A DNA stretch of 64,000 bases from Tolypeutes matacus (lineage: Eukaryota; Chordata; Mammalia; Cingulata; Chlamyphoridae), in NCBI GenBank assembly GCA_026826555.1, contig JAKSZT010053837.1:326770-390769 (forward strand). Direction: 5' to 3'. The first letter of the stretch is position 1; each line of letters begins with the position of its first letter. The notes below the pieces were generated by a model that was not told the DNA's origin, searched no databases, and worked only from the letters and a program-made list of their open reading frames with translations. The position numbers were made by a program, and so were the translations under genes. Below, one piece after another: positions 1 through 29,700 of this stretch.

Positions 1-194
1 TGAGTTTTCTGTAACAATATACTCTGAAATCTCTAATACTGTGGTTATTGAAAGAAAATAAAAAGAATGCTTGGCTCAGAACGTTAATATTTCATTCAAA
101 TGCCTTTTATAAGTTCTTTCATTTAATGAAAGAAACATTCCTCACCATTCACATTATCTTTCCCCATATTTTAACATTTTTTTCTTCATTACAG

Positions 195-315
195 ATTTCC
201 ATTCTCTCTAACTCCAAATAAAAAACTCTGCATATTGTATAAATCAATCAGAGAAGTTTTGGATGAAAACTGTGTGACAAAAAAACGTTATATCTGTAAA
301 CAACAGCCCTTATAA
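195..315 (+). CDS. Last coding exon of a KLRD1-like (CD94-like) gene, copy A; rest lies off the left edge
   Basis: A polypyrimidine tract and ATTACAG acceptor end at 194. The exon then reads open in the phase used by KLRD1 exon 6: one base completing a codon, 39 residues, then TAA at 313-315. The product has the end of a C-type lectin-like domain: Cys in KLC, Cys in DENC, and the terminal motif RYICKQQ before the stop (KQQPL). The intron before it and the 3' flank to about 760 align by eye with the same parts of the complete KLRD1 at 24530-25230, so this is a tandem paralogue and not a stray exon. It has no stop or frameshift, so it may belong to a working second CD94-like gene, but exons 1-5 are outside the window. 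The duplication looks old, since the two last exons differ at many residues. Confidence 0.8.
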
Positions 316-760
316 GTGTCATGTAAGTGTTTCATTGGGTAGGAGCAATGCAGGTCCAGATAAGCTGAGAATAATGCCTCTTACTTCCTGTTACTAATTA
401 TTTACTGGGATCTATAAAATTTGTATATATTTGAAATAATGTGTTTTAAAATTGATGAAATATCTGCCTATATCTGAACTTACAAAGAATCAAATAAAAA
501 TTTATGAAAATATTCTATTTATTTTGTTTTGATATTAAATATATTGCATTTTTATGTATCTTTTCTTGAAAACCTGAAAATCTCTGTGCACAAATTTAAA
601 TAAAACTGACCTAACACCAAGGAATATATAACAACATAATTTCAGTGCTTCATATGGAATATTAAATTTTGAAGTCCTTTCCTCACTTCTCTAAAAGTAA
701 AAATAATTTTAATACTTTTTGTTAGCTCTTCTTTCTGGAGAATTATATATATGAGGCCCT
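316..760 (+). other. 3' UTR and duplicated 3' flank of KLRD1-like copy A
   Basis: Collinear with the KLRD1 3' UTR and flank at 24829-25230. Shared blocks include the GGTCTATAAAAT-like stretch, TTTAAAATTGATGAAAT and ATTTCAGTGCTTC. An AATAAA polyadenylation signal is at 493-498. The stretch 1-194 is the matching part of the preceding intron. Confidence 0.7.
493..498 (+). terminator. Polyadenylation signal AATAAA of copy A
   Basis: AATAAA 178 bases after the stop codon, at the position equivalent to the AATAAA at 25004-25009 in the complete KLRD1. Confidence 0.5.
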
Positions 761-779
761 GAAGCTTTGGTCCTGTTGA

Positions 780-1060
780 AGAACAGAGCTGCCATGGTAG
801 GCTCTCCTGCTGGACAGTCACATGCAGAGAAAGGGCCAGGAAAATGAATGACCAAGAGGGGGAGAGCAAGAGGAGACAGACCCCAGCCTTCCAGTCATCC
901 CAGCTGATGGGCTGTCAGGGATGCTGTAATTCAAATGGTGGCTGAATGATGAGCCCAGAGGACATAACCTGGGACGGAATAAAAGCTATCCCAGCTATCC
1001 CAACAGAACCCTGCCCAGCCAACCTCCAGAAACACAAGCAATAAAACCTGAGTGTTTTTA
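780..1060 (+). repeat. Possible MLT1-like LTR 3' part
   Basis: The end of the stretch (AGCCAACCTCCAGAAACA, then CAATAAA at about 1040) resembles the 3' end of MLT1/MaLR LTRs. The 5' part is not recognised. The following 1060-1690 shows no feature I can name. Confidence 0.35.
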
Positions 1061-1689
1061 TGCCAGCCTCATATATTCATCAATTACCAATTTAGTCATG
1101 AGCCAATGAAAGTGAAAACTGAAATTTAATGTTGTGCTACTGACCATTGATGTTTAGTGTCAGAGGCAAAGGCAGTCTTATGTTCACAGACTGATGGATT
1201 CTGATTCCCTATAAGATTCAATTCAGTCAATCAAAAATGACTTATTTCACTTGACTGACTTGATGCAGATAGAAAATCAAGCAAAATCTGGACCTGGGAA
1301 GATGGCTCAGTTATCTCTACTAAATTGTGAGTAATGAACATCATAGATTTTGGATGTCAGAATGGATTTTTGATCACCTTGCTAAATGGTTTTCCATTTT
1401 TAAAGGTAGCAACCTTTGGGGCTTTCACAGGAAATGTAAGGAGAGGTAATTGGTAGGTTAGTGTTAAACATAATACCTCCGGATTTGCATTCTATTTGTT
1501 CACATCTCTGCCTAAGCTTATTTGAATAAAAGTTTTTTTTTTTTCTGCTTCAAAAAAGCTGAAAGGGTGAGAGAATAGGATTTGGAAGTTGAATTTGTGA
1601 TTTAGGAACTCAGTTTTGCCGTTAGTTGATTCTGGTAGCTTAAGCAAACAGCCTAATGAGATTTGGTTATTTCATGGTGGACGCCATGA

Positions 1690-2040
1690 CCTGAACTAAG
1701 TGCATTGTTGCTGCTACCAGCAGGAGGCTGACCTGGTAGAGAGAGCCACGGACCACACTGCTTGCATCACCCCACACACTCCCCAGCACGGCTCACCAAG
1801 GTGGACGACACTGTAACCACACTTTTGAAAGCGTGTATGTGCTTCAAGAGGCAGCTGGTGCCCAATCACAGGAGAGGAGCCACTCTTACCTTTGCCCCGG
1901 TGGCTCTTTGTTTCCACTGTAATCTAGCCCTGGAATTGGGGGCACTGGCCCAGCTCTTATCCTGTGCACAGCTTTCCCCCTGCTTTGCAGCCACTCTAAT
2001 GTTTCAGGGATTCTCTTTGGTGCTAAAATGGTGACTCTGG
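1690..2040. other. GC-richer unassigned sequence before the LINE-1 block
   Basis: Overlapping short open frames on both strands but no recognisable protein motif. It may be repeat-derived. I do not call a gene. Confidence 0.2.
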
Positions 2041-2826
2041 AGATTCAAGATGGCAGAGTAGGGAATGGCAGACTGCACTCCTCCAGAAACTGCGGGAAGG
2101 TGGGCAGGTTTACCTGGCAGAAGGGAAGCCACAGGACAGCGGGAGGCAATCAGAGAGGGCAGATAGAGAGAGGGGACCCAGATGCCCCGGGGAGAGGAAA
2201 ACCGTGGGAGATAGGGTCGACAAGCTAGCACACAGCTGGCTCAGAGGGAAAGGTAAACTGGGAAGTGATTTGGCTGGAAGAGCTCAGCTGGCACCAAGAG
2301 CCAGGAAAGCCACTGGGTGACCAGGGGTGCGTCTCAGTGCCCGGCAAGCTCTCGAAGTGGGGGAGCTGTGGGGCAAATAAATTTGGGGACAGGACCCAGC
2401 CAGCTCAGGGGGAGAGAGAAGTAGGGGGGGAGGGTTGATAGAATGGGCAGACCAGATCTCAGCCAGTTCGGGAACAGGAGAAATGCCAGCTGGCGCTGAA
2501 GTGGCTCCAGGGAGAGGGGAGTGGGGCGCTGATCAGGTGGGCGGGCACCTGCCGGCCCTGGGAGAGAGAGGGATTGGGTCAGTGAGGGGGGGTTGCCGAC
2601 AGACGCCCATCTGCCCGGCCGAGAGCGGAGCCAGAAGCAGCAGCAGCGAGCCATCAGGCGGGACAGGGGAGGGACAGAGGGCTGGGAGACAGCCGGCGAG
2701 CAGCCGGGGGCCCCACTGGCCGGGAAGAGAAGGGGCCAGAGCGCAATCCCGCGGTTGTCAGGTACCCAGCCAGCTCCCTGGGGGAGCCAAGGAACAAGCC
2801 AAGCAGCCTTGTGACAGGGAACTTAG
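2041..2826 (+). mobile_element. LINE-1 5' UTR fragment, forward
   Basis: Begins with AAGATGGCAGAGTAGGGA, the classic LINE-1 5' UTR start, and continues as GC-rich, CpG-bearing sequence. It stops abruptly at about 2826, where it meets LINE-1 ORF2 in the opposite orientation. Its sequence differs from the 5' UTR of the neighbouring reverse element (5100-6110), so the two come from different LINE-1 subfamilies. Confidence 0.7.
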
Positions 2827-3902
2827 ACTAAGAACCAGCTTTTGGTTTTGCTGATTTTCTCAATTGCTTTTCTGTTCTCATTTTCATTTATTTCCGCTCT
2901 AATCTTTATTATTTCTTTCCTTCTTTTTGCTTTGGGATTGGTTTGCTGTTCTTTCTCTAGTTTCTCAAGTTGTTCAGTTAAATCTTTGAGTTTAGCTCTT
3001 TCTTGTTTCTTAATATAGGCATTTAGGGCTATAAATTTCCCTCTCAAGACTGCCTTTGCTGTATCCCATAGGTTTTGATATGTTGTGTTCTCATTTTCAT
3101 TTGTCTCAATATATTTACTGATTTCACTTGCAATTTCTTCTGTGACCCACTGAATATTTAGGAGTGTGTTGTTCAGTCTCCAACATTTGCAAATTTCCTT
3201 TTTTCCTGTCTGTTATTGATTTCTAGTTTCATTCCATTATGATCTGAGAAGGTGCTTTGTATAATTTCAATCTTTTTATATTTATTGAGAGCTGTATTGT
3301 GACCTAACATGTGTTCTATCCTGGAGAAAGATGCATGGGCACTTGAGAAGAATGTATAACCTGCTGAGTTTGGATGCAGTGTTCTGTATATGTCTGTTAG
3401 GTCTAACTTGTTTATCATATATTTCAAGTTCTCCGTTTCCTTGTTGATCTTCTGTCTAGTTGTTCTATCTAATGATGTGAGAGGGGTGTTGAAGTCTCCG
3501 ACGATTATTGTAGAAATGTCTATTTCTCCCTTCCGTTTTGCCAGAGTTTGTCTCATATATTTTGGGGCACCCTGGTTAGGTGCGTAGATATTTATGACTG
3601 ATATCTTCCTGGAGAATCGTCCCTTTTATTTATATATAATGGCCTTCCACATCTCTTATCACTTTTTTGCATTTGAAGTCTGTTTTGTCTGATATTAGTA
3701 TAGCTACCCCTGCTCTTTTCTGTTTACTATTTGCGTGGAGTATCTTTTTCCAACCTTTTACTTTCAGCCGGCTTGTATCCTTGGGTCTGAGGTGAGTTTC
3801 TTGTAAGCAGCATATGGATGGCTCATGTTTTTTTATCCATTCTGTCAGCCTGTATCTTTTGATTGGGGAATTTATTCTATTCACATTCAATGATATTACC
3901 AA
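2827..3902 (-). pseudogene. LINE-1 ORF2, endonuclease part, interrupted and 3' truncated
   Basis: Starts at 3902 with MVISLNVNRINSPIK and shows endonuclease landmarks: CCLQETHL, then VGDFNTPLT, then TFSDHNGMKLEIN. An in-frame TAA at 3630-3632 follows EGHYI. A further stop follows NVGD near 3173, after which the frame shifts before [20 protein letters not shown] sequence resumes. The reverse transcriptase domain is absent because the element ends at about 2827. It cannot encode an active protein. Confidence 0.75.
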
Positions 3903-4052
3903 AATGCACTATTTATTTCCTCCATTTTATTCTTTGGTTTTCATATATCTTCTTATTTTTGTCTCTATTTTACTCTTTTGGTTATCCTTTCTGCTTTCCT
4001 TTCTTCTATACTCTCCTCCAAGCCTCTCTGTCCTGTCTTTTTCTTTCAGGTT

Positions 4053-4937
4053 CTAAGGCTTCCATAAATATTTCCTACAAAGGTGGATTCTTTTTTGCAA
4101 ACTTAGTTTCTGTTTGTTTGTGAATACTTTATATTCACCTTCATATTTGAAGGACAGTTTTGCTGGATAAAGAATTCTCGGCTTGCAGTTTTTCTCTTTC
4201 AGTTTCCTAATTGTATCATACCACTGTCTTGCCTCCATGGTTTCTGAAGAGAAATCTGCACTAAGTCTTACTGGACGTCCTTTGTACGTGATCGTTTGCT
4301 TCTCTCTTGCTGCTCTGAGAATTTTCTCTTTATCTTTTACATTTGACATTCTGAATAATATGTGTCTTGGTGTAGGTCTATTTGGATTTATTCTTATTGG
4401 AGTACGGTGTGCTTCTTGGACATGTAAGTTCATTTCTTTCGTGAGAGTTGGGAAATTTTCAGCTATTATTTCCTCAGAAACTCTTTCTGCTCCTTTTCCT
4501 TTCTCTTCTCCTTCTGGAACTCCCATGACATGTATGTTCTTGTGTTTTGTGTTGTCATTCAACTCTCTGAACCCCTGCTCAATTTTTTCCATTCTTTTCT
4601 CTCTCTGTTCTTTTCTCTCTTCAATTTTAGCTGCTCTGTCTTCAGTATCACTTATTCTTTCTTCTATCATTTCCATTCTGCTGTTGTATGCTTCAAATGT
4701 ATTTTTTACTTCACCTATTGTGTCTTTCATTCCCATGAACTCTGTTACTTTTCTGTTCAGGATTTCAAATTCTTCTTTGTGTTCGCGCAATGACTTCTTG
4801 ATGTCATTGATCTCTTTAACTATATTGTCTTTCATCTCATTAATTTGATTTTGGAAATGTGTGCTCATCTCACTGATTAGTTCTCTCAAATTCTGCATCT
4901 CTTCTGGGACTTTGCTGTATTCCTTTTCTTGGGCCAT
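4053..4937 (-). CDS. LINE-1 ORF1 protein, open frame of 294 codons
   Basis: This open frame encodes the LINE-1 RNA-binding chaperone that coats L1 RNA in the ribonucleoprotein used for retrotransposition. Residues about 10-125 are charged and coiled-coil-like (heptad-rich, many E/K/R). The middle holds the RRM-like domain (HVMGVPEGEE). The C-terminal domain carries the conserved AREKQTITYKGRPVRLSADF block at about 218-237. Human ORF1p is 338 residues, so this copy is shorter, mainly in its N-terminal part. It begins with an ATG in the expected place between 5' UTR and ORF2. It belongs to a truncated LINE-1 copy, so it is a transposon remnant, not a host gene. Whether it is transcribed cannot be seen. 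Confidence 0.8.
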   Translation of the reverse strand: MAQEKEYSKVPEEMQNLRELISEMSTHFQNQINEMKDNIVKEINDIKKSLREHKEEFEILNRKVTEFMGMKDTIGEVKNTFEAYNSRMEMIEERISDTEDRAAKIEERKEQREKRMEKIEQGFRELNDNTKHKNIHVMGVPEGEEKGKGAERVSEEIIAENFPTLTKEMNLHVQEAHRTPIRINPNRPTPRHILFRMSNVKDKEKILRAAREKQTITYKGRPVRLSADFSSETMEARQWYDTIRKLKEKNCKPRILYPAKLSFKYEGEYKVFTNKQKLSLQKRIHLCRKYLWKP

Positions 4938-6112
4938 GTCTCATATTTTCTTAGTATTGCTCATAAATTTTTGCTGGTGCTTAGGCATCTGGTTAGTTTG
5001 TATTTTACTTAGATGCTCTATCTCTTTCTCTTTTATGGGGTTTTAGTGGCAGGAGGCTGTGAGTTACCACCGCTCTTTGATTTTTGGCTCAACCTTGATT
5101 GTTAGGATTGTTCTGCTGGTTGCTCAAAACTGGGCACTGGACCCAGTAATTGGTTGCAGAGTCGCTTCCTAGGGCCTTGGGCAGGGAGGCTATAGAGGCC
5201 AGGAAAATCCTCTCATTAATTTTCTTATGTGCACTTCCTTGGTCTGCCAGGAGATGGCGCTTGTTGGCAGCTCTCAATTCAATATCTGATTGGAGCGTAT
5301 TTGTTGTGACACAGGCCAGATCAATGTGATAGAGCTTCCTGTCTGGGGGCTAAGAGCCCTGTGATTCAAACTTTCTGAGACAGTTCTCCAGACTTCTCTC
5401 CTAGCACCCCCCTTTTCCCAGCTAGGAAATATTTCCACTCCCTTCTGAATCCTCAACAATCAGTCCCTGTTCGTAGAGGAGGAGATTGGGAAGTTTGTAT
5501 ATCTTTAGCCCCTTGCAGGCTCCAAGGCAAACAATGGAGCAGCCCCACCCAGCCTGGAAGGGCTCTCGGAACAGGGCAGACCAAACCTGGGAGTCCAAAG
5601 CAGGGTCAGCCCCAGGCTCTCTCTCCCCTCTCCCATGGTGTCCTCAACAATTAGTCCAGGCTAGAAGAGAGGGAGGTTGCGAGGGTCGGATTTCTCCAGT
5701 CCTTTTAGGCTCCCAGGGCAAACTGCCATGTGGAAAGGTCTGTGGGGCTCCGCAGTTCAAATTTCAGGTCAGAACCTGAGTCAGCCTAAGGCTGTGTCCC
5801 TCTCTCTCTCCCCTTTCTGGGAGTGGTAGATCCCTGGAGCCCTCTTTGTCTGTGGTCGCAGGCCCAGAGTCCCGAGAATTCTGAAGAGTGTGGGGGAGGG
5901 TGCCGGCAGCAGCAGAAGCTGCTACTTGCAACTCACGTTTCTGTTGTTATGCTTTCCGTCTTCTGTCCCTCTCTCCTCTGATTGGTGTGCAGCCTTCACC
6001 TGCTGTCCGAAGCCCTAGAAGATCTTTTTTGGGGCTGTTTCAGCTTGTCCTCTAGCTATTTTTTCTGGAGAAGAGATTCCCGTGTCTTACTAGTCCGCCA
6101 TCTTCCCGGAAG

Positions 6113-7925
6113 TCCTGCCATAAATTCTTATATTAAAAAAGAAGAAAGCACTAAAATCAAGGATGTAACTGCACATATAGAGGAACTACAGACTAATCCT
6201 AAAGCAGAAATAAGGAAATAACAAAGATTAGAGCAAAACAAAATGAAATTGAACATTTAAAATAAAACACTAGAAAAAAATTAACCAAACTAAACACTGG
6301 TTCTTTGAGAAGATTAATAAAATTGACAAACCCTTAGCTAGACTAACAAAGAAAAAAAAAGAGAGAAAATGCAAATAAATAAAATGAAAAATGAGAAATG
6401 GGTATCACCACTGATCCTACAGAAATAAAGAGTATCATAAGAGGATACTTTGAAAAAATTGTATGCTAACAATGGATATCTTAGATGAAATAGACAAAAT
6501 TCTAGAAGCACACAGTCAACCTAATTGATGAAAGAAGAAATAGAAGAACTTGACAGACCAATTCCAAGTAGTGAGATTGAATTAGTCAACAAAATCCTCC
6601 CAACCAAGAAAAGCCTAGGACCAAATGGTTTCATGGGTGAATTCTTCCAATCATTCTGGAAATAACTAACACCAATCCCGCTTAAATTTTTCCAAAAAAT
6701 AGAAGTGGAGGGAGCATCACCTAACTAATTCTATGATGTCAACATCACCCTAATACCAAAGCCATATAAAGATGCCACAAGAAAAGAAAACAGCAGACCA
6801 ATCTCTCTAATGAACTTAGGTGCTAAAATTCTCAACAATATACTTGCTAATTATATCAAATGAATTATACACAATGATTAAATGGGTTTTATCCCAGGCA
6901 TGCAAGGATCAATCAGTGTAATACACCATATAAACATGCTGAAAGAAGAAAAATCACACGATCATCTCTATTGATGCAGAAAAGGTATTTGACAAGATAC
7001 AGCATCCTTTCTTGATAAAAACAGTTTGAAAGATAGAAATAAAAGGAAACTCCCTCATCATGATAAAGGGTACATATGAAAAACCTACAGCTAACATCAT
7101 ACTCAATGGTGAAAGGCTAAAGGCTTTCCCTCTAAACTCTGGAACAAGACAAGGATGCCCACTGTCACCTCTCTTATTTAACATTGTAATAGAAGTACTT
7201 CTTGAGCACTTAGGCAAGAAAAAGAAATAAAAGGAATCCAAATAGGAAAGGAAGAATTAAAACTTTCACTATTTGCAGATGACAAGATCCTAAATGTAGA
7301 AAGGCCCCCAAAATCAAAAAGCCAGTTGATCCCTGAATCTCAACAGAGTTGCAACCAACACCTAATCTCCAGTTTATTAGACTTGCCCAGGACAACAAAC
7401 AAAATGATTATGGACAACCCCCATCACCCCCCAAAATAGAGAGTATCTACAACTGCAAGCAAAAACAGTTCCTTCTATCTGTCCCATGAGATCTAAGGCC
7501 CCTCTCAATCTGAGGCAGGGCAGGCATCACCATCCCAACATCCTCAAGGTTGAGGAATGAACAAACATAAGGGAAGAATGCAACCATGGACAAAGTAAAC
7601 TTATTAATATTGCAGTATGGAAGAACATGTAACATTGTTATGAAGATAGTGGATACCAGAAGTTCTGAGGAGAGTGGGAGGGAATAATAGGTGAAATACA
7701 GGGCATTTTTAGGGCATTGGAATTAAGTGTAAACCACAATGTAAATTATAGACCTTGGTTAGTAGCAATGCTTCAATATTTATTCAGCTATAAGAAATGT
7801 ACCACACAATTATAAGGTGTTATTAATAGGGGAAGAATTGCGGGTTATATGGGAATCCTTTATATTTTTTATGTAACTTTTCTGTAATCTAAAACTTTTT
7901 AAAAAATAAATTTTATTATGTTAAA
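6113..7925 (+). mobile_element. LINE-1, forward, old: ORF2 remnant plus 3' UTR
   Basis: Forward ORF2 sequence begins at INSYIKKEESTKIKDV and decays through many stops. The reverse transcriptase region is recognisable (LGPNGF near 6620, SPLLFN near 7165, LFADD at about 7272-7286). After the FADD region it jumps directly to a 3' UTR (7320-7925) of the type also seen at 42590-43385, 49230-49945 (reverse) and 63620-63935, so an internal deletion is likely. It ends in an A-rich tail. Confidence 0.75.
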
Positions 7926-8430
7926 AAATGCTTTACTGTTCTTATAAGCAAGACTCCTGAGTGCAACTTTATCTTGATATTGGCTACTAATTTGTGCTCG
8001 TCATGGGGATATCTGTCTGTGCTGTTAGCTTAATACAAAGGAATAATTGAGAAGAGTTTAGAAATAGATCATCTGCAGGGCTTGTAATTAATCCCGTCAA
8101 TCATTCCTATTTATCGCTAGTAACTGGCATGTTGTTACTAGTGAAGTGCCAGAGAGCTGCTGGGAAGATTCCCCCTCAAGAAGCTTAAATGCAGATATTG
8201 GATATTTTTGATTAAAAGTAGATACATCTATTTTTGAAACTGAAAGAAAAGTCTATGTGACATTTCTAATGAATACAGGATAATTTAGGACTCATGACAG
8301 AATGCTTGTCATTCTGTATTTGTATATGTATATTTAGTATAAGGAAGTTCTTCTAGTATCAAATTATACATTTCTTGGGAGCAGAGTTCTATTTTTTTTA
8401 AAAATGTTCACACTAATAATTGTGACCTTA
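7926..8430. other. No feature recognised
   Basis: AT-rich sequence without convincing open frames, repeats or motifs. Confidence 0.3.
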
Positions 8431-8600
8431 TCTGTGGACACACCCTCTTCAGAGCTTTGCTGAAATTTCACTGCGAGGCTTTCCCTCACAACCTTATTTA
8501 AAATTGCATTACACCTCACACCTATCCCAGTTCTTCCAATCCCCCTTGTTTGTTTAATATTTCTCCCTGCCTCTTATTCCACCTGAGAAACTATTTACAC
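8430..8600 (-). repeat. L2-like LINE fragment
   Basis: Degenerate match to the common L2 3' segment in reverse (GAGGCTTTCCCTCACAACCT followed by a pyrimidine-rich stretch). The following 8600-10360 shows nothing I can name beyond a short (TA)n run near 10105-10122. Confidence 0.35.
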
Positions 8601-10359
8601 TTGCATATTCTTATTGTCAGACTCCTGCAATGGAATTAAAATAGCACAAAGGCAGCCTTCTCTGGTCTGTGTTGAGGAAGAGCTCCCAGTCCTGAGCAGG
8701 CAACCAGTAATCATTTCTAAAATGAAACTGTATTGTATTTTCAGCACGAGTATTGATGCTTGGGACCATAAAAGTACAGAGTATCTTAGCAATTTAGTTA
8801 TGAAATAACTTTAAAATAGTGATTTCATTTCAAAATACTGATTCTAATCCATCAAATACCAGCCACATTTTTCCACCTCATTTGTATCCATAAAAATCTT
8901 ATAATAATAAGGGGAAATATTATTCTGTTCTCTATAGAGTATTGAAGGAGAAGAGTGAAAATCATTCAGATTAACGAATGGCCATTTCAGAGCATTTAAC
9001 ATAATTTTAGAGACATGACCAAAAATAGAAAATATTTTCATATTCCTCTTGGATGCCCCCACATGTTGCTCAACAGTCTTTCTGTTTCCCACAGTGGAAT
9101 AATGACATCTAACACTCACTTCTTTTTCTGGTCAATCACTGGCAAGAATAAACTACATTTAGAAGAGCTGGGAGGAAAAAACTAAGTAGAATACAGACCA
9201 TTTCTGATTCTTTTTCAGTTTTCTGCACTTTGAAGCATTCTATAATTACAAAAAAACTCATATTAAACAAATAAATTTAAAAACTTAGTGTGTATTATAT
9301 AAAAATCATTTATTATCCAAAGATAACAAAATAAAATGAAATTATTTAGCATGGCAGAAAAATTTTTTCAAATAAGACGTTTTATTTCCTATTTCATCTC
9401 ATGAAACAGAATTATGGTACTCTATTGTCTCAGAGCATGTTGTATAAACTGCTGTTATATTATTTGTAATATTGTGTTATAATGCTTTTAACTTTTTCAC
9501 TAGACAAAGATCTTGAAGTAAGGTATCCCATTTATTCACACCATTCTATTCCTTAGTGTGTACCTAGAACATTGTAAACATGATATTCAAATGTAGTGAA
9601 AAGTAAATATCCTTCAACCGTTAAAGTCAAATTCTAATGCTTGCTTTGCACTAACATGTTTTAGGTAAACAATTTCTCATCTCTCCTTCCCTTACCTGCA
9701 TTTCCCATCCACGTACACATATGCCCCTTGTAATAGAAGGAGCAAGATATAATCTATCTTCAAGAAATGCAGAGAAATTCCATGAAGGACCCTCCACCTT
9801 CATGCCAATGTAAATTGTTTAATATTCTGAAGTATGACAAAATTCACAAGTAGATATAGATGTATATATAAACTGATACATATTTAAATTAAATTAGGCT
9901 TCTTAGAAGACAGAAGATATGGAAAGAGACAAAACAGGGAATAAAATATATATCTAAATCATGCCAAAGCTTTATAACACACTTCTGGGTTATACAAAAT
10001 AATAGTGGCCACAACATTTTAATTGTCTCCCTACACCTGGATTTTATCTCCATGAGAAAAATGAGACTGAACTTAGCCAAGTATATGTGCATAAATTTAT
10101 GTATGTATATATATATATATATGCAAAAATAGGCTATTATTATACAATAAATATGCATCCAATACAGTTGTGGATATTTATATATCTAAATTCAAACAGA
10201 GACTCAAAATCCCTAGATAATTGTGGCTAAGTAACGTACGAGATTCTTAAAATTATGCAAAATGACTCTACATTTTGATCTATCCTGAGTTAGACAAAAC
10301 TTAGTGAGATTCTTAACACAGCCATTGCTAGTGAGGGGATTTTGAGCATGTCTCCTTAA

Positions 10360-10490: not shown

Positions 10491-12362
10491 TATATAAAAT
10501 TTTATAGGAAATTATTCCATACAATCAATCACAGACCACTCCTCTATGAACAAATTATGAAAGAAATTATAAAATTTATCAGTAATCCATTATGTGACTA
10601 TTTTTCCTATTTATTTTAGCTTACTGGAGCTTGGAAAGATGTAAATTCATTGATACTCACTTGATATTTTGTCAGAAAGTTAAAAGATGAGTTATTTAAA
10701 CAAAATACCACTAATCTGGTAATTAATCTCCTTTTTGGGTACTTATGTTTCTTACTCTTCTGAGAGAATCCCCTTTTCCTTCCCTATTCTCTTTTCCTTT
10801 GAGATCATAGAGCTTTGCAACAAAGACATTTTCACCTAAAGGCCAAGAAAGAGTTTCAGTGATATTTTACCGATACTTATTAAACCTGCTTGTGATTTAG
10901 ACTTCAAGGAGTGATCACTTTGTCCATTTTGTTTGTTATTTCAGAATGAAAAACCTAAAGATCCACCCAACAGCTCACCACAGAGAAGCTGTTTCCAGCC
11001 ACACAGGAGTTGACAAGTTGTAGCTGCAGCCAAGCTCTTTGCAGCTTTCATGAGCTTTTAACACCTCCTTCAAGTCCCCTATGACACACCGACTTATTAA
11101 TTAGAAGATCTGTACATTAAGGACTGAAATGAAGAAATTTTGAAACAAGTTACATTTTTTCTCACTCTGACTTTTAAGCCTCTTCCTACCCTAAACAATT
11201 GGAAATTCCAGTGTTTTATCCAAAATGTATGTTATAATTCTACCACCATTATTTGAATATTTTTTAAATCTATACACATTTCACTTTATAAACTAAATAT
11301 TAGGCAGTCTCAAGTGCCCAGAAAGATCTAATGATACCCAGATCTTTACACTGTTCTGTTTCTTTCATTTGGGTCTGAGTAAACTATTCTTACCAGCCAG
11401 ATGCTGAATTTGTTGCTGCCTTGGTTTTCTTATTTGTTTAATTGCTTGTATCTTTTGGTGGAAAACAGTTCTCTTGGTACTTTTAACTTGAAGTAGTGTA
11501 AAAAGAGGAAACTTTCTTTTATTACTGTCCTTGGTCAATATCTCTGAGTGAATTTGTAACAATCAGTTAAAATAGCAACTGTTGAATGATATCATACTTG
11601 TAAAAACAAGATGGCATAAAAAACAAAACAAAATATAATTAAAGATTTTGACTAACATCAGAGATAAAATCAAAAGTGTGTTGAAAAGGAACTGAAAATC
11701 AGCATCTTTCCCATTGACCAATATTTCCTCACTTGAATTAAAGCTGCCAGGTGGTCATCTCTGTCCCTTAGTAATAACTAGGCAATTTGTTCCAAAGTCT
11801 ATCCAATGACCATGAACTAAACTCAGAGTGTTTAGCTTAATTTTCACATATTTTTCATTGTCTCCAAAAGGAAACTGTGGAAAATCTGGTTTAAGAAAAT
11901 ATTCATTAATCTCTATTCTCTAACAGAAATCTTGGAATTCTGAGAATCATAGATCCTTGACTTTCTATCAAAAGTTTTGCTTCATTTGAGACCAGGTCAC
12001 ACTTGCAACTGTTCCCAGTTGACTCCTCTGGATCACAACAGTGTCCAGAACATAAGAGGGGAAAAAAAAGGTTTTATGAACTTGCCTATATTCATGAAGT
12101 TTTACTGGTATTTACTCATTATTGGCATTTAGGCATTCAAAAAGTGTTTTATTCATTCCTCCATTTTCAACAAGCTTTCACTGAATAACTAGTTTTCAAC
12201 TGTGAATAACTCAGACATGATCCTTACCTGTGTGGAAATTCCATTCCAATGAGATAGAGAATATTTTAATTGCCCAATTTTTTAAACTGCAATTATCTGT
12301 ACTTGGGGTAAGCATGCAAAGAAGTGCAGAATGCTTGAGCAATTATGGAAAGAAGTTTTGAG

Positions 12363-12366
<4 letters not shown>

Positions 12367-12759: not shown

Positions 12760-13215
12760 TGATCAGCCCAGGCAGTCTCAAGGAAGTTGTGAAATCAAAA
12801 TCATTGTATTTGTAAGAAAAAGCTTAACTCTTTTTTTAATGAAAAATTCAGTCTACATGACTAAAAATAGAACTTCTTACTTTTTAACAAATTATATTTT
12901 TTCTCTCTCTTTCTAGATGGCTTTGAAATACATCAAGGTGTATTTTATCTCATTGTAAAATATAATTTAAATACGTTTAAAGTTTTTAATTACTAATGAT
13001 AGAATTTCTGTTTCTTCACCTGAAAATAGGAAGCATCAAGATAAATAAATTTATAAATATCCTTTTTAATGTATTTTATAAAAACTAAATGAAAAGTTCT
13101 TTTTCGCCATGTCTTGATTCCTTAAGATTCTTTGAACACAAATTTAAATAAAGCTTAATTAACATAAAATAATATTTATCAATAATATTTCAGGGTTGTC
13201 ATACTGTAACAAATT
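12760..13215 (+). pseudogene. Decayed KLRD1-like last exon and 3' UTR
   Basis: Near 12785-12825 the stretch ending AATCATTGTATTTGTAAG matches the KLRD1 exon 6 block encoding NHYICK, with a one-base deletion and other lesions. Downstream, 12960-13215 follows the KLRD1 3' UTR block by block: ATAGAATTTCTGT, GCATCAAGATAAATAA, CACAAATTTAAATAAA and ATATTTCAGG have counterparts in the same order at 24960-25150 and 465-640. I could not find its other exons upstream. This is the weakest of the four copies and rests on alignment by eye. Confidence 0.5.
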
Positions 13216-14089
13216 GACATGTCCTTTTTTCCTCCTTACTAATTAGAAATTGTTTCTGAATTTTTTGTCTAGCTCTCTTTGAACACTGCAGATTCTCCCC
13301 TTACATTAACCATTTTCAAAGGAAAGTGAAGTTGGGTTATCAATTCTAAATGGTCCTCAGTTGTGTTGAAAAGCAAAAGTACTTGGCCAATTGCTTGGAA
13401 ACCAGCAAAAAATCTGCTTTCAGATTTTCCCAAAAGAATAATAATCTGTGCCATGATCCCTTGAATTCTGTACCTTCTCATGGTTTTTTCTGGCTTATGT
13501 TTTTCAGTCAGTAAAGGAGTCACTTAGCTGTCCTTTTTTTCCTGATCGATGCACAAAACACTTTTCCTAAATATCAAGTCAAATATTGTACAACTCAATA
13601 ATGTTATGATGTTACACATATTTCTTAAGAAACACGATTGACATCCTTACTTCACATCTCATTTTATTATTCAAGCTCTAATAATATCATTAAACAAGTA
13701 TGACTTGATTTTATTATACAGTGTGCTATTGTAGAGAATATAAACTCCTTCATTTATTTCTTAATATATAAGCTTTGTAGGATGATCAAACTAGAACCAT
13801 TTCACTCTTGAGTAAGGGGAGAATTTAGAGAAATTAACTTCAGTAATATGGTGAGAGATGCCGATTAGATAATCTATCCTTTAAACACATGAATTCTAAC
13901 TAAAATAAGTTATGAATTATGCTTCTTGGAGATATAAAGTTGTTTTGCTTAATTTTCCATTTTTTAATCAAAGTGAAACATTCATATGCTTTAAAATGCC
14001 ATAGTACAGAAGAATTTATGATGAAAGTTAACAGTTCTCTGTTCTGCCTGTTATCATCCTTATCCTGCCCTAAGAGGGAAAGGATTCCT

Positions 14090-18329: not shown

Positions 18330-18383
<54 letters not shown>

Positions 18384-20044: not shown

Positions 20045-20230
20045 CATGTGTGCTCTGGAGCAAGACTGACTGGCTTTCAAACTTCAGTGACTTAGCTGTA
20101 CTATTCCTCAGTTTTATCATTAGTAAAATGAGGGTGTTCATAATACATTCCTTATGAAGCCATTTTGAGAAAGAACTGAGTTAATATACGTGAAGCACTT
20201 AAAATTGTCTTTGGCACAGGAGAATTCTTT
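20045..20230 (+). repeat. MIR SINE
   Basis: MIR core and end: TTCCTCAGTTTTATCATTAG, AAAATGAGGGTG, ACTGAGTTAATATACGTGAA. Confidence 0.6.
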
Positions 20231-20658
20231 ATAGAGTTTTATTGTACTAAGTATATTTACCTTTTGTTTGTCCATTCTTTTTTTCATCTTTTCCAATATA
20301 GATTTTTAAAGACTACTTGATGTTCAAACATTAAAGAAACTCCCTCTAATCTTTTTTTTTTTTTGGTAATCAAAAGGCATTCAAAAGTACAGTGAGAATT
20401 TCCTGTATTGCAGTACCCAGAACATTTTAGAGCTAATTGATTGTACTGCTTCTTGCTCATATTATACATTTGTGGCTCACCAATACTTGATTCAAGAACA
20501 TTATTTAATTACACAATTTTTTCTCATTTATTTTAAATTTGTTCATGCGCAACTTTTGGATTCCTTAGCGTGCAACTCAACTCTGTCGTCCTGCCTTGCT
20601 CCTCTCCAACAAGCACACATCGTGCCTTTTCTGCATTGACCTTGGGACATCATTTCTC

Positions 20659-20665
20659 ATGGCAG
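20659..20665 (+). CDS. KLRD1: KLRD1 coding exon 1
   Basis: ATGGCAG followed by donor GTATGT. The short first coding exon (Met-Ala plus one base) is characteristic of CD94 and joins in phase with exon 2 to give MAAIQT. Confidence 0.85.
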
Positions 20666-23600
20666 GTATGTGTAACCCCGATCAGAAGTTTTAAAAATAA
20701 AGAAAAAAGACATCTCATGGGTTTGGATAATTTAAGGATAATGCTTTTTTCTTTCTTCTTTTTTTTTTTTTTAAAGTGGGGGACATGGATATTTTTAGGT
20801 TTGCCACATGCTGGTATTTTCAGCATTTATTTTAATTTCTTGATTCTTCTTTCAGTAACTTAGAAATTATTTTGTGCAGCTTTTCCAGCCAATTTAAAGA
20901 GTAGCTTCTGATATGGGCACCTCTAAATTCTGGATGAGAACCCAATTCACCTAGTTGTAATATGATCAATATAATTTTATCAAGGGAATGAGTAGAGATT
21001 GCCAAATGTATATGACACAATGAGTAAAAATGTTGATTTTTTTAAAAACTACTATTTGGGGTGTGACATCCAAAGATTACTGAGATTTACAAGTTGACAT
21101 ATTATACTGTTGTCACTGACAACATCACTTTTTGGTAGTATGCTCACTTTAATGCAGATTCTCTTCGGGTTGAATTGTTGTTGGAGAAAAGACTATAACC
21201 AGTTAATTTTGTACACGAGCAAATGGAATGCTCTTATTCTGTGAAAGCAGCCCTGTTGGCCAAGGTATTATTCATGCATTGGTTGTGGATCCTTTCATCC
21301 CATCAAGTCCAGAGTGTTCTCATCTTCTCTCTTTCCTTTAGCAGCTCTACAAAGCTAAGAGCAGCTAGACTTTCCTCTGAGCAGAGCCTGCATTGAGATT
21401 AGCAGAAGGGCTCACTCCCAAAGTGCCCTAATGTCAGTGTGTTTAAGGAAAGACTCTGGGCTTAGATGAACTCTAGTTTGGTTTCTGATTTGGGCATTTA
21501 ATAGCTTTGATACCTAGAGAAAATAACATGATTAGACCCTCAATTTTCTCATCTCTGCAATGTGAATCATAGTGGCTACCTTGTGATTCTGTTAAAAGAT
21601 TACGCAAGTACCTAAAACAGAACGTGGAGCTTGCTGCTCTCTTTTTGCACTAGATCTCTGAGCTTCTTTATAAGTTAAAAAATAAATAGTTAATCCTCTT
21701 CACTGTTTTAGAGACAGAGATGGTAGAGGAAAAAAAAATATATGGACAATCTCAGTGAAGACTAAATTACACCAAATACAATTTATGGTATCAACTGTAG
21801 CCCCTAATGGAATGTTTCCCTTTGCTAATGTTTCATTGGTTGCATGACTGTCTTATCAAATCAAAGACTTAATGACTAAAAGATTCTTTTATCTACCCAT
21901 ATGTCCATTATGTGGCTCATGAAGCTTTAGGATTCTCTCTCTCTGATTTCTGGTTTTAAAAACGTCAGCCTCTATGTTTGCTCTTTAAGTTTTTGCCCTA
22001 ACTATAACATTTTCTTTCTCTACAGCTATTCAGACTGTTCCATGGAGGTTGATTTCTGGGATCTTAGGAGCAATGTGCCTTTTGTTGGTGTCTACTTTGG
22101 GAATTTTGTTGAAACAATGTAAGTTTCTCTAGGCAAATCTTTTAAAAGATCAAAATTCTGATTAAAGAATTTGGTAATACATTTTATATTTTATTAGTAT
22201 ATAATATTTTATTAATTCACTGATACATTTAAACCTGTACCTAATTATATATATATATACTTATAATCATTTCTTATAGTATTAACTAAAGAAATTGATC
22301 CATCTACATTCTCTTCACATCCCACTATAGGACCCCAGGAAGGTAGGTTCTATTTTTTGGAAACCCTTAATGTTGGTAAAGTGTGAAAATAACAGGTTCT
22401 TGTTTTTCATACAGAAGGTCATGTTGGACTACTACAAACAATAATATAAGTTTTCATTTCTAATTGTAGGACAATCTCATTCTACTGTTCTCTACTGTAA
22501 GCATGATTAAATTACATTGGGTGTGCATCAATTATATGTAACATATAATGCTCCATTGCATGTAGTAGATTCCCAAAGACTATTTGTAGAAAGAAATGAA
22601 TAAATAACAAATGGCTTTAGAATGAGTGAAAATTCTATGAAATGTTCAATGAAATCAATCATGTTTCCCACCCCACCCCTGCCCCCCGTTAGGCTCTGGT
22701 TGTTGTTCTTGTCAGGAAAAGTGGATTGGGTACCGATGCAACTGTTACTTCTTTTCCACTGAAGAAAAATCTTGGGAAGAAAGTAGGGTTGCCTGTGCTT
22801 CTCAGAATTCCACTCTATTTCAGCTGGAAAGCAGAGATGAACTGGTATGTACTCACTTTTATTTCCCACATTTAAAAAAAAAATCAATTTCATTGGTATG
22901 TAGTAATAAAGCACACAATTCATTCAAAGTGTTCCATCAATGGTAAAACCCACATTAACTTTGATCTAAGAAAACATCATATCTAAGTAAACTGAATACT
23001 TTGATTCAAGTCCTTAATCAAAATTAGAGGAATATATTTTAAAATATATTATATTAATTTCCTGTACCTTGAAACAATTATTTTAAAACCCACATAAAGT
23101 TCTTCAAAGATTTACATCAGAGGGTTAAAAATTAAGATGCCAGAAAAAAATGCAAGAAACTTGTCAGGGAGACTTGAAAGAAGAAATAATAGGTTTTAAT
23201 AAAAGATCCAACTAAACAATTTAGTAATTTTTAATTCTTTAACTGAATTTACAATTTCTTTTGTAATTATGTAGCTGTTATCATCTGTCTGTGAACTGAT
23301 ATGTAGAACCGATATGGAAGATATAACCATAAAAGTGACCCAGTTCTTAGGAAAAAGTAAAAATTTCTCTGCTGTTTGTAGAACCTGGGCTGAGAATTGG
23401 TTGAGTAGATTACCCACGGGATTTATTCCTCAGTATAGTGTTGGGCTGGGAGATTTTGAGGCTGGTATTTCGGATCCCCTGTAAAGATGTGTTCAATGAA
23501 AATTTTAACTCCCTTTATAATTGTTTTCATCTACAATAGAGAGGTTCTGTCTTTTTTTTTTTCCTCCATAAATGAATGGGCTTGATGAATGAGAAACTTG

Positions 23601-24828
23601 AGCCTTAGGACTTCACTCTCTCAATGAAAAGTTAAACGTTATTTAAATTGTGTGATTGATAGGCTGAGTGTAATGCTGGGGCACTGATTTTCTCAAAAAT
23701 GCGCTATTCCCAGGGTAGATTCAAATTAGGTTAATGTGTTTACCTGTTTCCAATCAGGGTTTTCTGATCAACCATCAGTCTTTTTATTGGATTGGGCTCT
23801 CCTATAACAAAACCCGCGGCGCCTGGATGTGGGAGAATGGCTCTGCTCTCTCCCCTGATCTGTAAGTTTTTGGCACTCAGGTGCTTTCTTGGATGTATGT
23901 GAGTTTGTTCTTAGATCTCACTGGTGCCGTTAACATCCAGGAGCAAGGTGGCAAAGGGAACCTGTATAGGGCATGGAGTTACGGAGAAAGGAAGAGGTAC
24001 AATAGAATAACAATTTTAGCCCACGCAGAGCATCCAAGTGAAGTGAAAGTTATGTTCCTGTGCCTGTAAAGAACTTTTGACTATACTTTTTGGCATGTTG
24101 CCTTGGGATAAACACATGGATGTGTGTGTGTGTTTGCACATATGCTTAAATACATTATCTCTGATTCAGCAGTCCCAGCAATCCAAGTAAAGCTATATAT
24201 CCATTCTTTTCTTTTTTTGGCAGAACCCCAAAATCTCAGTGTGCTTCCAGTGTTTCAAATATTCTGGGCTTATCTTCTGCATATTTGTAAACTTTGAATC
24301 TCATTTTTATTCATAAACATGGACTTTACAATCTAATGCAATGATAAATTGCATACTCTGATTTGTTTTCCTAAACTAGATCAACCAGTAACTCTTTAAA
24401 CAAAATCAAAGTAAAGCATCTTATGCATCAAAACCATGAAGAAAACATCAAGAACAAAAATCTTTGTTGTCAAAAATATTGATTATTGAGGGAACAGCTG
24501 CGTTTCCTAAATAATGTACTATGAAACCTTGAAAACTGTGGTTATAGAATGAAGAAAAATGAATGACTCAATATACTTCATTCGAATGCCTTTAAAAGTT
24601 CTACATTTAATAAAAAACACTGTCTATCCCTGTATACTCTCATTTTCTTTTCCGTTATGTAAATATTTTCTTTTTCATTACAGATTATCAGGCTGTCAGC
24701 CTCTATCTCCCAAGGACTGCACAGTATATAAACCAAACAATTGTGTTATGAATGAAAACTGTGTGGAAAAAAATCATTATATCTGTAAGCAACAGCTGCA
24801 AATGTTTATGGGTTTGGGTAGGCGATGA
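20659..24828 (+). CDS. KLRD1: KLRD1 (CD94), NK lectin-like receptor, six coding exons
   Basis: Exons join as 20659-20665, 22026-22118, 22280-22342, 22693-22844, 23758-23861 and 24684-24828, all with GT/AG sites and matching phases, giving 187 codons. Type II membrane protein: tail MAAIQTVPWR, one membrane span (LISGILGAMCLLLVSTLGIL), stalk, then the C-type lectin-like domain with RCNCYFFS, FYWIGLSY and NHYICKQQ. Cysteines 58, 59, 61, 70, 72, 89, 152, 166 and 174 fall at the human CD94 numbers. In known CD94, Cys59 makes the link to NKG2 chains. The heterodimer reads MHC-E-type ligands on NK and T cells, and CD94 itself has no signalling tail. Odd: the normal stop is passed, adding eight residues (QMFMGLGRR in place of the usual I), and there are extra Cys at 144 and 160. 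Sequons at Asn93, 122 and 132. Expression not shown. Confidence 0.93.
21440..21640 (+). repeat. MIR SINE in KLRD1 intron 1, shared with the pseudogene copy
   Basis: Degenerate MIR with CCTCAATTTTCTCATCTCTG. A matching MIR occupies the equivalent place in the broken copy (27060-27260), so it was present before the duplication. Confidence 0.5.
22026..22118 (+). CDS. KLRD1: KLRD1 coding exon 2 (membrane span)
   Basis: Acceptor TTTCTCTACAG, donor GTAAGT. Encodes IQTVPWR and the hydrophobic span. A Trp-Arg pair marks the cytoplasmic side; there is no charged residue in the span. Confidence 0.93.
22280..22342 (+). CDS. KLRD1: KLRD1 coding exon 3 (stalk)
   Basis: Acceptor TTCTTATAG, donor GTAGGT, phase 1 at both ends. 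Encodes the stalk LTKEIDPSTFSSHPTIGPQE. Confidence 0.85.
22693..22844 (+). CDS. KLRD1: KLRD1 coding exon 4 (lectin domain, first part)
   Basis: Acceptor CCCCGTTAG, donor GTATGT. Encodes GCCSCQEKWIGYRCNC through QLESRDEL, with five of the framework cysteines plus Cys89. Confidence 0.95.
23758..23861 (+). CDS. KLRD1: KLRD1 coding exon 5 (lectin domain, middle)
   Basis: Acceptor CCAATCAG, donor GTAAGT. Encodes FYWIGLSYNKTRGAWMWENG, the WIGL core of the fold. Confidence 0.95.
24684..24828 (+). CDS. KLRD1: KLRD1 coding exon 6 (lectin domain, end) and stop
   Basis: Acceptor TTTTCATTACAG. Encodes the last three framework cysteines and KQQL, then eight extra residues past the human end before TGA at 24826-24828. 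Confidence 0.93.
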
Positions 24829-25030
24829 AGGTTCAGATTTACTAAGAAGAGCACTTTCACTTTGGTTGTTATTAATTATCTACTTCTGGGGTCTATAAAA
24901 TGCTACAATTTGTGTCTTGTCATATAATTTGTATGTATTTGAAATATGTGGTTTAAAATTGATGAAATTTCTGTGTCTACAATTGAACCAGTAAAAGCAT
25001 CAAAATAAATAATTTTATGAAGATTTAGAT
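24829..25030 (+). other. KLRD1: KLRD1 3' UTR
   Basis: AATAAA at 25004-25009 is the likely polyadenylation signal. The region is homologous to the 3' end of copy A. Confidence 0.65.
25004..25009 (+). terminator. KLRD1: Polyadenylation signal of KLRD1
   Basis: AATAAA 176 bases after the stop codon, at the position conserved in copy A. Confidence 0.6.
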
Positions 25031-25229
25031 TTTATTTTGTTTTTAATATTAAATGTATTGCCATTTTGTATATCTTTTCTTGTAATTCATCACTGCACAA
25101 ATGTAAAGAAAATTTACTTAAGACCAAATAGTATATATTATCATGATTTCAGTGCTTCTTATGGCAAACTAAATTGGGAAATTCTATCCTCACCTTTCTG
25201 AAAGAAAAAGTAATTTTAATGCTTTTTTA

Positions 25230-26200
25230 TTAAGTTTACATTTTTTTAGAAACTGCCAACCTGTTTTCCAATCAGAAGTTCCATCTTGCATTCCCATTTG
25301 CAGTTTTTAAGAGTTCTACTTCCTCCACATCTTCTCCAGACCTTGGACTGGTCGATCCTAAAGCCATTCTAATAAGGGTGTAGAGATGGCTCATTGTGGT
25401 TAAAATGTGCATTTCTTTAGTATATAATTACATTGATCATCTATCCATTTGTTCATTTGCCATAATTATATCTTTCCTGGTGGTGTGTATATTCAACTAT
25501 TTTGGCTAATTTTCTTGTTTACTTTGTTTTGTTTTATTTTCCTTTTGTTGAGTTTTGATAGCTGTTAAGTATTCTGAATATATGTCCTTTATTTGATTTA
25601 TACCTTGAAAACATTTTCTCCCAATCTGAGCCATGTCTTTTCATTCTCTTGACAGTGTTTTTCAAAGAGTTTTAGATTTGGGGCAAAGTACATTTTATCA
25701 ATTTGTTCTTTTATGAGCTGTGCCTTTTTTTGTCATTTCTAAGAAATATTTGCCTAACTTAAGGCAATATAAGACTTACCTCCATTGTTTTCTCTAGAAG
25801 CTTGATAGTTCTAGGTTTTACATTTAGGTCCATGATTCACTTTGAATTAATGTATATTTTTAGTGTAAAAGGTGAATCAAGGACTTGTATTTTCTTTCTG
25901 TGTATGTAAAGATACCTACTCCTCCAGGACAATTTGTAAAAAGATTATCCTTGTTCCACGTAACTACCTCTGCACAGTTGTCAAAAATAAATTTTGGAAG
26001 TATGTGCGAATCTATTTCTGTACCCTTTATTCTGTTAGATTTATCTATTTGAATATCTTTACTTTAATACTACACACTTTTTTGATTACTCTATAATAAG
26101 TCTTGAACTTAACAGCAGGTAACAGGCCTCCAATTTTGTTCTTTTTTAAAAATGTATCAATATGTGTCTGGGCTAATTTCAGAGCAGTGCTTTTATATCA
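25230..26200 (-). mobile_element. LINE-1, reverse, 3' part
   Basis: The plus strand shows the usual reversed LINE-1 3' sequence (GAAACTGCCAACCTGTTTTC; TTCATTCTCTTGACAGTGTT). It separates KLRD1 from the pseudogene copy and occupies the place where exon 1 of that copy would be expected. Confidence 0.7.
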
Positions 26201-26249
26201 CACAGTATCATTAACTACATAACTTACAGCTTGCATGCATGAGCATTTT

Positions 26250-29200
26250 CCTACTCATTTTAATTTCCCATTCTTCATTCTGTAACTTAGAAATCATTTT
26301 GAGCAACTTTTCGAGAGGGTTCGAAGAGTGGGTTGCATTTATTGTAACTCTGAATTATGAGTGAAAAACTAAATTCACCTGGTTAATTTACAAGGAACAA
26401 AATTCCAATGTAGACAAATACATATGAAACAAAATATAAAGGTGACAGTTCATAAAAGCCTTATTTTAAAATTTAGTATGTGTTCTGGGACATGAAAAGA
26501 TGAACTGGCACAAGTCTTACATATTTTGAAATGCTGTACTCTTTTTCTTTTTCCTTAGGGGGTACCTGGGATTGAACCTGGGACCTCGTGCATGTGAAGC
26601 AGGTGCTCAACCACTGAGCTACACCCTTCTGCAGTGCTGTACTCTTGTCACTACCAACACACCACACTTCATTCCCATGTGATTCTGCTAATGTTAATTC
26701 ATGTTCTAATGAACTTGGGTTGTTTTAGGGGAAAAGCCAATAGTAAATATTTTCAGTATGAGCAAATGAAGATGAAAAATAGAAAGTTCTGGTAAAGACA
26801 AATCGTTTATATAGCATAAGTCCATATTGTGTGAAATAAATGAAGTAAATGCAGCTCTCTACCCCCACCCCAATACCAACTCAGTACCCACAAGAATGAT
26901 TTGCCTATTTACCTATTTACCTCTGCAAATCTATACGGGCAATTAGAAATCACTCAGAGCAGAACCTTAACTGACATTAAGAGAAGGATATGTTTCTAAA
27001 GAGTGATACTAACTACAATGCTAAAGTACTTCAAATTTAAAGACTCAAGGCCTTAGACATATTGCAATTTGAATTCTTGTTTGGATCTCTACTATTTGTG
27101 AAGACTTGAGCAAGCAATGTTATTCTCAGAGCCTCAATTTTATCATCTATCTAATGGGAACCATAACATCTACCAAGCGAATTTGTTGAGAGGTAAAAAT
27201 AAATACCTGCAAAGTAATGACATAAACAGTAGTAGGAACATAGTAGGTGCACATTAAATCGAGACAATTGCATTCTTCTTACTACATATTTCTAAGCTTT
27301 TTTGCCACATTTACTGTTTTGTAGAGACAAAGGAGAAGATCTGAGAGGGGCAGAGGAAAAAAGGTAAGAATAATCTCCCTGAAGAGTTGAGTATAATACA
27401 TAAAAATTATGGAGTTAGAGGTACGACTGGAATGTCTTCCTTTTTCAATGTTTCGTTACTTGAATGACTACAGAGCAAATAAATGACAATATTGAAAATT
27501 CCAAGATTGTTAATAATATTTTATTTTTCACTCTTTAAGCTCTGGTTCTGTGGTTGTCCAGAAAAGGGAATTGTATACAGATGCAACTGTTACCTTTTTT
27601 GCTAATGAAGAAAAAAGAAAAAGTTGAACAGGGAGCTGGGTACTCTGTGCTTTTCAAAATTCCAGTATACTTAAGCTGGAAAGTAGGGATGATTTAGAAT
27701 ACACTTGACCCTGACTTCCCATTTTTCCCTTTGGCAAGCAGCTTGATATAAGAAAATATACTAGCTGTGTAAGCTGAGCATTTTGATCTGGCTTCTCATT
27801 CAGATATTAAGGAGATAGTTATATTTAAACACGACCTGTTAATTCCCTGTACCTCCAAATACTCATTACAAAAACTAATACAAAAGGCCTCAAAGATTTA
27901 CATGATAAGGATAAAAATAAAGGTGCCAGATAGAGCGTATGTAACATTTCAGGGAAATTCAATAAGCAATGATAAATCATCACTTATATGCATATAATAG
28001 ACTACTGTGATGCTATGAAAGTAAAATGGTTTCAGTAATATCAAAACATGTTTATTCAGTATTTGCTATCATTGATATGTCATTTATGGAACTTATTTTT
28101 CCATAAAATTTTCCCCTTAGATGATTGTAGATAAATGCACCATATAATTCTAAGTTTAAACACAAAATTATGATATCAGTGCCTTACCAGTTGTTTCATT
28201 CAAAGAACCAAATAAACTGCTTTGTAATATCTACTTCTTTCAATGGAATTTATCATTTGCTTTAACATCATGTAGCTTTTGTCATCACTTTGAGATACGA
28301 TGTAGAATAAATATGGAGGATACGGTTCTAAGAATCACTTCATGCTTAGGTGTGAGTAGAATCTATGCTAAGTGAGCTTCATTAGGGCAAACCCAGGATA
28401 TTTATCATTCAAGATATCACTGGAAGGGTGTGAGGCCAGGAGCTCTTGGATCCTGGAAACGAAGCTTCCCATAAGAGCTCTAACTACCTTCACAAAGTTC
28501 TACTATAATTTATCTACCTACAGCTCCCTGATGATTGAGATTTAGTGAGTCTGGTAATGAGAACTATAAGCCATGTGACTGTAACCTTTTTATTAGAAGT
28601 TAAAAATGTGCAATTGGCCAGCTGAGTCTGAAGCTGGTCTCCAGACTTTCCTAAAAGTGCCTGGTTTCCAGAGTGGATTAGAGTTATTTAATATGCTTGT
28701 CTCTGTTTCCAACCAGGATTTTATCAACTTTCTACCATCTATATACTGAATTGGGCTCCCTTGTAGTGAAGCCTGGTTATGGGAGGATGGTCTGCTCTCT
28801 CCCTGATCTGTAAGTTTCTGGCAATTGGATGTCTTTTCTGCTCTGTGTAAGTTTAGCCTTATCTGTAATATCCACTCACATCCAGTAGCTCTGCATTGAA
28901 AACAACATGTCAAGGGCCTGAGATTACAGAAAAGAGTGTATGCACAAAATTAAAAGTCTTTTAGTTTGACCCAGAACTTTCAAATTTATGCTCAAGTGTC
29001 ATGGTAGTTAGTTGTCCTCTGTCCATAAAAGAACTTTTGACAAATGATTTTATGTTAGAACTGTTATGATATCCTTTTGCTCTGCCACACACATGTCACA
29101 CCATCTCTGATTCATCTGATATTGCAATCAGGAGAAAGGGATCAAAGCCTTCTATTCATTGGTGGAGCCTATGAATAGCATCCTCATACTTTTTCAAAGA

Positions 29201-29700
29201 TTTTGAGCTCATCTTCCACATGTTATTAATCTTTGAATCTCAATTCCAATTATAACATGGATTATGCATGTTTAAATGAGCCCAAATTTTATTCTCTAAT
29301 TAGTTCTCCTAGCCTAGACAATTAGTTCTCTCATTCTTTCTTCTTAAAGAAAACAAAAATAAATCATATAAGGACTCAAGAACATGAACAACTCAATGGA
29401 AACAACAAATCTCTGGCCTGAATGAAGGGATTGAATTTTATTACTGGGGGAATAAATTAATCTTCTCTAACCAACTAAGAAATCTTGAAAGCTTTAGTTA
29501 TGCAATAAATGAATGAATAACTCAAGTGCTATTATCTCATTGAAATACTTTGTTTATCATATGATTAAAAACAGCATCATCCTTAAATCCTCAAATGTTA
29601 ACATTTGCCTTTTCATTGCAGATTATCATTCTCTGAGACTCCAAATCTAACTGCATGTATACATACCAAGAACTAACATTTTAAAAGAAAAATATAGCAG
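26250..29700 (+). pseudogene. KLRD1 pseudogene (copy C): intron 1 part plus wrecked exons 4, 5 and 6
   Basis: Intron 1 homology with KLRD1 begins near 26280 (GTAACTTAGAAATCATTTTG) and includes a shared MIR. The membrane-span and stalk exons are deleted: the sequence passes from intron 1 directly to the exon 4 relic at 27540-27698 (TACAGATGCAACTGTTACCT), which has frameshifts, stops and no donor. The exon 5 relic is 28717-28809: acceptor AACCAG and donor GTAAGT remain, but the WIGL Trp position is replaced by a stop and the frame is broken. The exon 6 relic starts at 29622 after TTTTCATTGCAG and loses homology by about 29700, before the terminal cysteines. It cannot make a receptor. A SINE (26543-26634) has inserted in intron 1. 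Confidence 0.88.
26543..26634 (-). mobile_element. DAS-type SINE, reverse
   Basis: Reverse-oriented tRNA-like body (GGGATTGAACCTGGGACCTC; CTCAACCACTGAGCTACACC). Exact 11-bp target-site duplication, TGCTGTACTCT, at 26532-26542 and 26635-26645. Confidence 0.88.

Follow-up and report, generated by a model that had tools for sequence, protein, structure and literature searches.

Two divergent CD94 lineages that seem to predate the split of armadillos from sloths and anteaters, viewed from a natural killer complex locus of Tolypeutes matacus

The number of CD94 (KLRD1) genes has been described as stable in most mammals, and the same paper reports 54 KLRD genes in the platypus (PMC11484026). According to two primate studies, the mouse lemur carries three CD94 genes, the ruffed lemur an estimated three, the potto seven CD94 sequences and the tarsier nine, and heterodimers in lemurs are formed from all CD94/NKG2 combinations (PMC2757895, PMC4701786). 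Reports on ruminants describe KLRD as duplicated in cattle and goats (PMC5350243) and the cattle genes KLRD1 and KLRD2 as both transcribed in NK cells (PMC4543905). The initial annotation of the DNA studied here had named lemurs as the setting of CD94 expansion, which is correct for lemurs but leaves out the potto, tarsier, cattle, goat and platypus.

The window, a stretch of 64,000 nucleotides from the armadillo Tolypeutes matacus, carries several CD94 copies, labelled A to D from left to right, two of which (C and, probably, A) represent sequence types also present in sloths and anteaters. This xenarthran duplication is similar in kind to the known lemur and cattle expansions. As in the lemurs, potto and tarsier, a single species carries several divergent CD94 genes in its NK complex. 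The xenarthran case differs in that its two lineages span armadillo, sloth and anteater, and in that the xenarthran sequences form a group of their own in our trees, which suggests an origin independent of the lemur-type expansion. Cattle and goats likewise have two CD94 genes, and the position of the sampled ruminant sequences inside Artiodactyla indicates a separate duplication. The platypus family, as described, has been multiplied too, and to a far larger extent. The closest counterparts are CD94 and CD94-like proteins of Dasypus, Choloepus and Tamandua (P0001-P0005, P0023, P0041, P0056 and P0069), automatic predictions that we regard as orthologous or co-orthologous to C and A. No paper on xenarthran CD94 was found among the titles and abstract openings of the open-licence literature searched.

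Copy C (20659-24828, plus strand) is a complete C-type CD94 gene, as first annotated. Its six coding exons (20659-20665, 22026-22118, 22280-22342, 22693-22844, 23758-23861 and 24684-24828; 7, 93, 63, 152, 104 and 145 bases) have AG/GT at all internal borders and join into a single frame of 187 amino acids. CD94 has six coding exons, of which the first is tiny, and encodes a type II membrane protein of about 180 amino acids, a layout that copy C matches in its exon number, 7-base first exon and length. The predicted protein contains a Lectin_C domain (E 3.4e-15), and its closest database proteins are CD94-like, from Dasypus novemcinctus (83% identity), Tamandua (75%) and Choloepus (73%). Among PDB chains, human CD94 matches at E 2.9e-48, single-domain NKG2D chains at 1.6e-27 or weaker and NKG2A at 4.5e-16; the two-domain chain 8tm0 reaches 8.2e-51 when summed, with a best domain of 4.1e-25. 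By these scores, the nearest proteins and the tree, the lectin-like domain of copy C resembles CD94 more closely than it does NKG2 or NKG2D. The lectin-fold cysteines expected in CD94, and the stalk cysteines that serve the link to NKG2, are all present (C58, C59, C61, C72, C89, C152, C166 and C174).

Lectin-domain exons of KLRK1 (NKG2D), identified by sequence match, lie downstream of the CD94 copies on the minus strand (39446-46384), which places the locus in the NK complex. The position of copy C beside KLRK1, the usual neighbour of KLRD1, fits the gene order of this complex. Two further stretches lie on either side of KLRK1: a lone stretch resembling a KLR transmembrane exon between D and KLRK1 (35977-36093, plus strand; LWKFIAAILWIICLMLLLSVGILATKYK), and a stretch resembling lectin exon 5 beyond it (62877-62972, minus strand; WIGLYREHSDQPWLW), perhaps from a KLRC or another KLR gene.

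Copy A is represented by an open exon 6, the last exon of the CD94 gene (195-315, plus strand), the window containing only this exon of A because exons 1-5 fall to its left. An AG acceptor precedes position 195, and 39 codons follow to a TAA stop at the usual CD94 end. It lies in a block (8-727, plus strand) that is collinear with 24505-25235 of copy C from the end of intron 5 through exon 6 into the 3' UTR and flank, with nhmmer E-values of 1.9e-60 (query C) and 3.8e-66 (query A) and 73% agreement over 685 aligned sites. Human CD94 is the best PDB match of exon A (E 4.4e-6 to 4.8e-6); among NKG2-D chains the two-domain 8tm0 reaches 4.9e-5 and the others 0.27-0.4. Its top matches among 151 fetched proteins are A-type CD94 proteins of Dasypus (67-69%). 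Exon A therefore falls with CD94 in protein matches, tree and PDB, as annotated, and not with another KLR gene, within a comparison set that lacked KLRE for A, B and the inverted piece described below, and also KLRI for exon A. Between A and B, open frames on the minus strand (3173-4937) resemble pieces of L1 ORF1 and ORF2 by eye.

The remaining CD94 pieces are decayed. Copy D (26243-29690, plus strand) is a pseudogene in which four blocks are collinear with C across its whole extent (nhmmer E 1.9e-12 to 1.4e-86). D has nothing corresponding to about 21871-22678 of C, where exons 2 and 3 lie, and its exons 4-6, read by eye, are interrupted by stops and frame breaks. Copy B (12793-13279, plus strand) retains a decayed exon 6 tail and 3' UTR. 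Its segment at about 12793-13235 matches C at E 7.6e-10 when B is the query but no better than 0.0014 when C is; against A, the match covers 12997-13279 (E 8.2e-7). An inverted relic of CD94 exon 4 with flanking intron (11824-12131, minus strand), also found with nhmmer, matches C at E 2.7e-11 and D at 7.1e-12. This relic sits between A and C and adjoins B, and the two may derive from one shared dead copy. Their sequences mark B, D and the inverted piece as dead copies.

Searches of the reversed window with C, A, D and B as queries gave no nhmmer match at E 0.01, and no Markov shuffle scored as high against C as the real sequence (50 trials each for A, B and the inverted piece, 20 for D). Default blastn also returned the A-C and C-D blocks. 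The tandem duplication of CD94 proposed in the initial annotation is thus upheld by nhmmer collinearity and by protein and PDB matches. Similarity extends beyond the exons, into the end of intron 5 and the 3' UTR for A and C and through the four blocks of D. The four traces that had been listed are all real, including a broken D and a decayed 3' end in B, but a fifth, the inverted exon-4 relic, had been missed.

Kimura distances were 0.34 between A and C over 685 sites and 0.45-0.57 between C and D in four blocks. The most diverged pieces are B and the inverted relic (A-B 0.77, C-B 0.67, C-inverted piece 0.70), although distances to relics come from noisy alignments of sequences that evolve free of constraint. 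The greater distances to C over the four long blocks of D had led us to consider an origin of D before A and C separated, but we dropped this idea. In the exon-6 stretch common to A, C and D (225-250 sites) the A-C and C-D distances are equal (0.42 and 0.43; A-D 0.49), so that a greater age of D is not evident. In AU tests relic D was compatible with a place among the C-types (p 0.399) or the A-types (p 0.636), neither being rejected, and the inverted relic, with an end branch of 3.55, cannot be placed in the tree.

The relationships of A and C were examined with proteins hand-picked for species spread. The careful tree has 45 rows (43 of the 151 fetched proteins, window C and exon A), and the quick tree 71 (70 of the 151 proteins, with exon A omitted). 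For the careful tree, the AU tests and the tree with relics, any row longer than 200 residues was trimmed to its C-terminal 185, except P0150, which was trimmed to its CD94 start. A C-type clade with support of 100/99 in the careful tree unites window C with two Dasypus proteins and one each from Choloepus and Tamandua, while an A-type clade (92/97) holds three Dasypus, one Choloepus and two Tamandua proteins along with exon A. The two clades join at 95/87, a sister relationship that, in trees lacking an outgroup, assumes a root outside Xenarthra. The quick tree gives 99 for the C-type, 92 for the A-type and 88 for their union. When two relic rows were added, the C-type (95/89) and A-type (96/97, again including exon A) were kept and the joint grouping was lost. 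Since armadillo, sloth and anteater occur in each clade, the A/C duplication seems to be older than the split between armadillos and sloths plus anteaters. The annotation had proposed that this lineage has its own history of CD94 duplication. The trees and AU tests support a xenarthran origin, but the history is not private to the lineage, as sloth and anteater share the A/C duplication. Four Dasypus proteins named CD94 or CD94-like (P0001, P0069, P0005 and P0056) are assigned to a contig of one and the same length (54,705,911 bases) and differ in sequence, which suggests that this genus has at least four CD94 loci, two per type.

We propose that a tandem duplication before the armadillo/sloth-anteater split gave rise to A-type and C-type CD94, that both lineages are present today in armadillos, sloths and anteaters, and that B, D and the inverted piece died, a course of events read from the sequences. 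Copy C, and A if its exons 1-5 are intact, would most likely encode membrane-anchored CD94 chains that pair with NKG2 (KLRC) through a stalk disulfide to form NK-cell receptors for MHC class I. By analogy with lemurs, a different CD94 chain would present a different ligand face, so that two lineages would multiply receptor types; wider CD94/NKG2 pairing through two CD94 types is plausible on this basis. We assign a probability of roughly 0.78 to this account as a whole, in which an ancient duplication left dead relics and C, with A if intact, as alternative NKG2 partners. Confidence is held to this level because A is seen as a single exon with equal dN and dS that can also be grouped with the C-type without rejection, because the joint grouping is lost with relics, and because window C retains few putative ligand contacts (see below).

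It is unlikely that only C works, A being a decaying gene with a last exon left open by chance, in which case pairing would not be widened. Exon 6 of A and C has dN = dS = 0.29 (28 aligned codons, 14 synonymous sites), so no constraint is visible there, and the sister copies B and D are both dead. Chance openness is not improbable either: with an assumed indel rate, a simulated neutral exon was still open in 9 to 6% of cases at 0.17-0.20 substitutions per site and in 23 to 2% over 0.1-0.3, and without indels in 65 to 38%. However, the splice acceptor of exon A is intact, its reading frame stops where CD94 normally stops, and C152, C166 and C174 are still encoded. The best argument for a living A is the prediction of full-length A-type proteins in three xenarthrans (Dasypus, Choloepus and Tamandua).

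The C-type has features of its own. Window C and Dasypus C-type P0001 are alone among 152 aligned rows in having extra cysteines at human positions 144 and 160, where 140 and 142 rows, respectively, have a residue. These positions probably lie in or beside the ligand-facing part, and the pair, apparently gained in the armadillo C-type, may form an extra disulfide; an AlphaFold2 model of P0001 was weak (pLDDT 65.7, pTM 0.51). All four C-type rows with a complete C-terminus (the fifth, P0069, being truncated) have a C-terminal tail, which is lacking from the six A-type rows that are complete there, the A-type P0005 ending differently, in a short form; at the DNA level the shifted stop was seen only for window C versus A. 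We also compared 13 HLA-E contact positions of human CD94, 8 of them in exon 6. Of the 13, window C shares 4 residues with human; the other C-types share 5 (Dasypus P0001), 5 (Choloepus) and 3 (Tamandua), and the A-types 9 (Dasypus P0005), 5 (Choloepus P0041) and 7 (Tamandua); within exon 6, window A keeps 5 of the 8 and window C 2. With 4 of 13 contacts kept, the ligand of copy C may differ.

These features bear on a second alternative, that C acts outside the CD94/NKG2-MHC-E system with another KLR partner or another ligand, which we judge improbable. The low count in window C compared with Dasypus P0005, the new cysteine pair and the C-terminal tail all point in this direction. Yet the stalk and fold cysteines are retained in C, and the sloth A-type P0041, with just 5 contacts, indicates that C is not alone in keeping few of them. 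The CD94 of lemurs, moreover, diverges and nevertheless pairs with NKG2 (PMC2757895).

That A and C were duplicated inside armadillos, independently of sloths and anteaters, is very hard to sustain: exon A alone, with its 39 residues, can be forced into the C-type without rejection (5.6 log-likelihood units, AU p 0.153), but holding the seven armadillo rows together costs 44.5 units (AU p 0.0046, a value that assumes a group named in advance), and the C-types of all three groups join firmly and share the C-terminal tail.

Several CD94-like proteins were also observed in Loxodonta (P0011, P0048, P0051, P0060 and P0062), Elephas (P0032, P0070 and P0076) and Trichechus (P0008, P0024, P0127 and P0138). 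In the quick tree these elephant and manatee proteins split into two groups, and an afrotherian CD94 expansion seems likely from these sequences.

Returning to the ancient A-type/C-type duplication, a bolder and doubtful extension would be that the two lineages have been a standing pair of NKG2 partners since before the xenarthran radiation, and that the MHC-facing edge of the armadillo C-type was rebuilt with a second disulfide and reads a ligand not of the MHC-E type. The cysteine pair of the armadillo C-type is a specific change, close to the ligand face, that can be tested. The literature searched says little about NK receptors in xenarthrans, and if two CD94 lineages have persisted in armadillos, sloths and anteaters, this would point to a long-lasting role for a second CD94.
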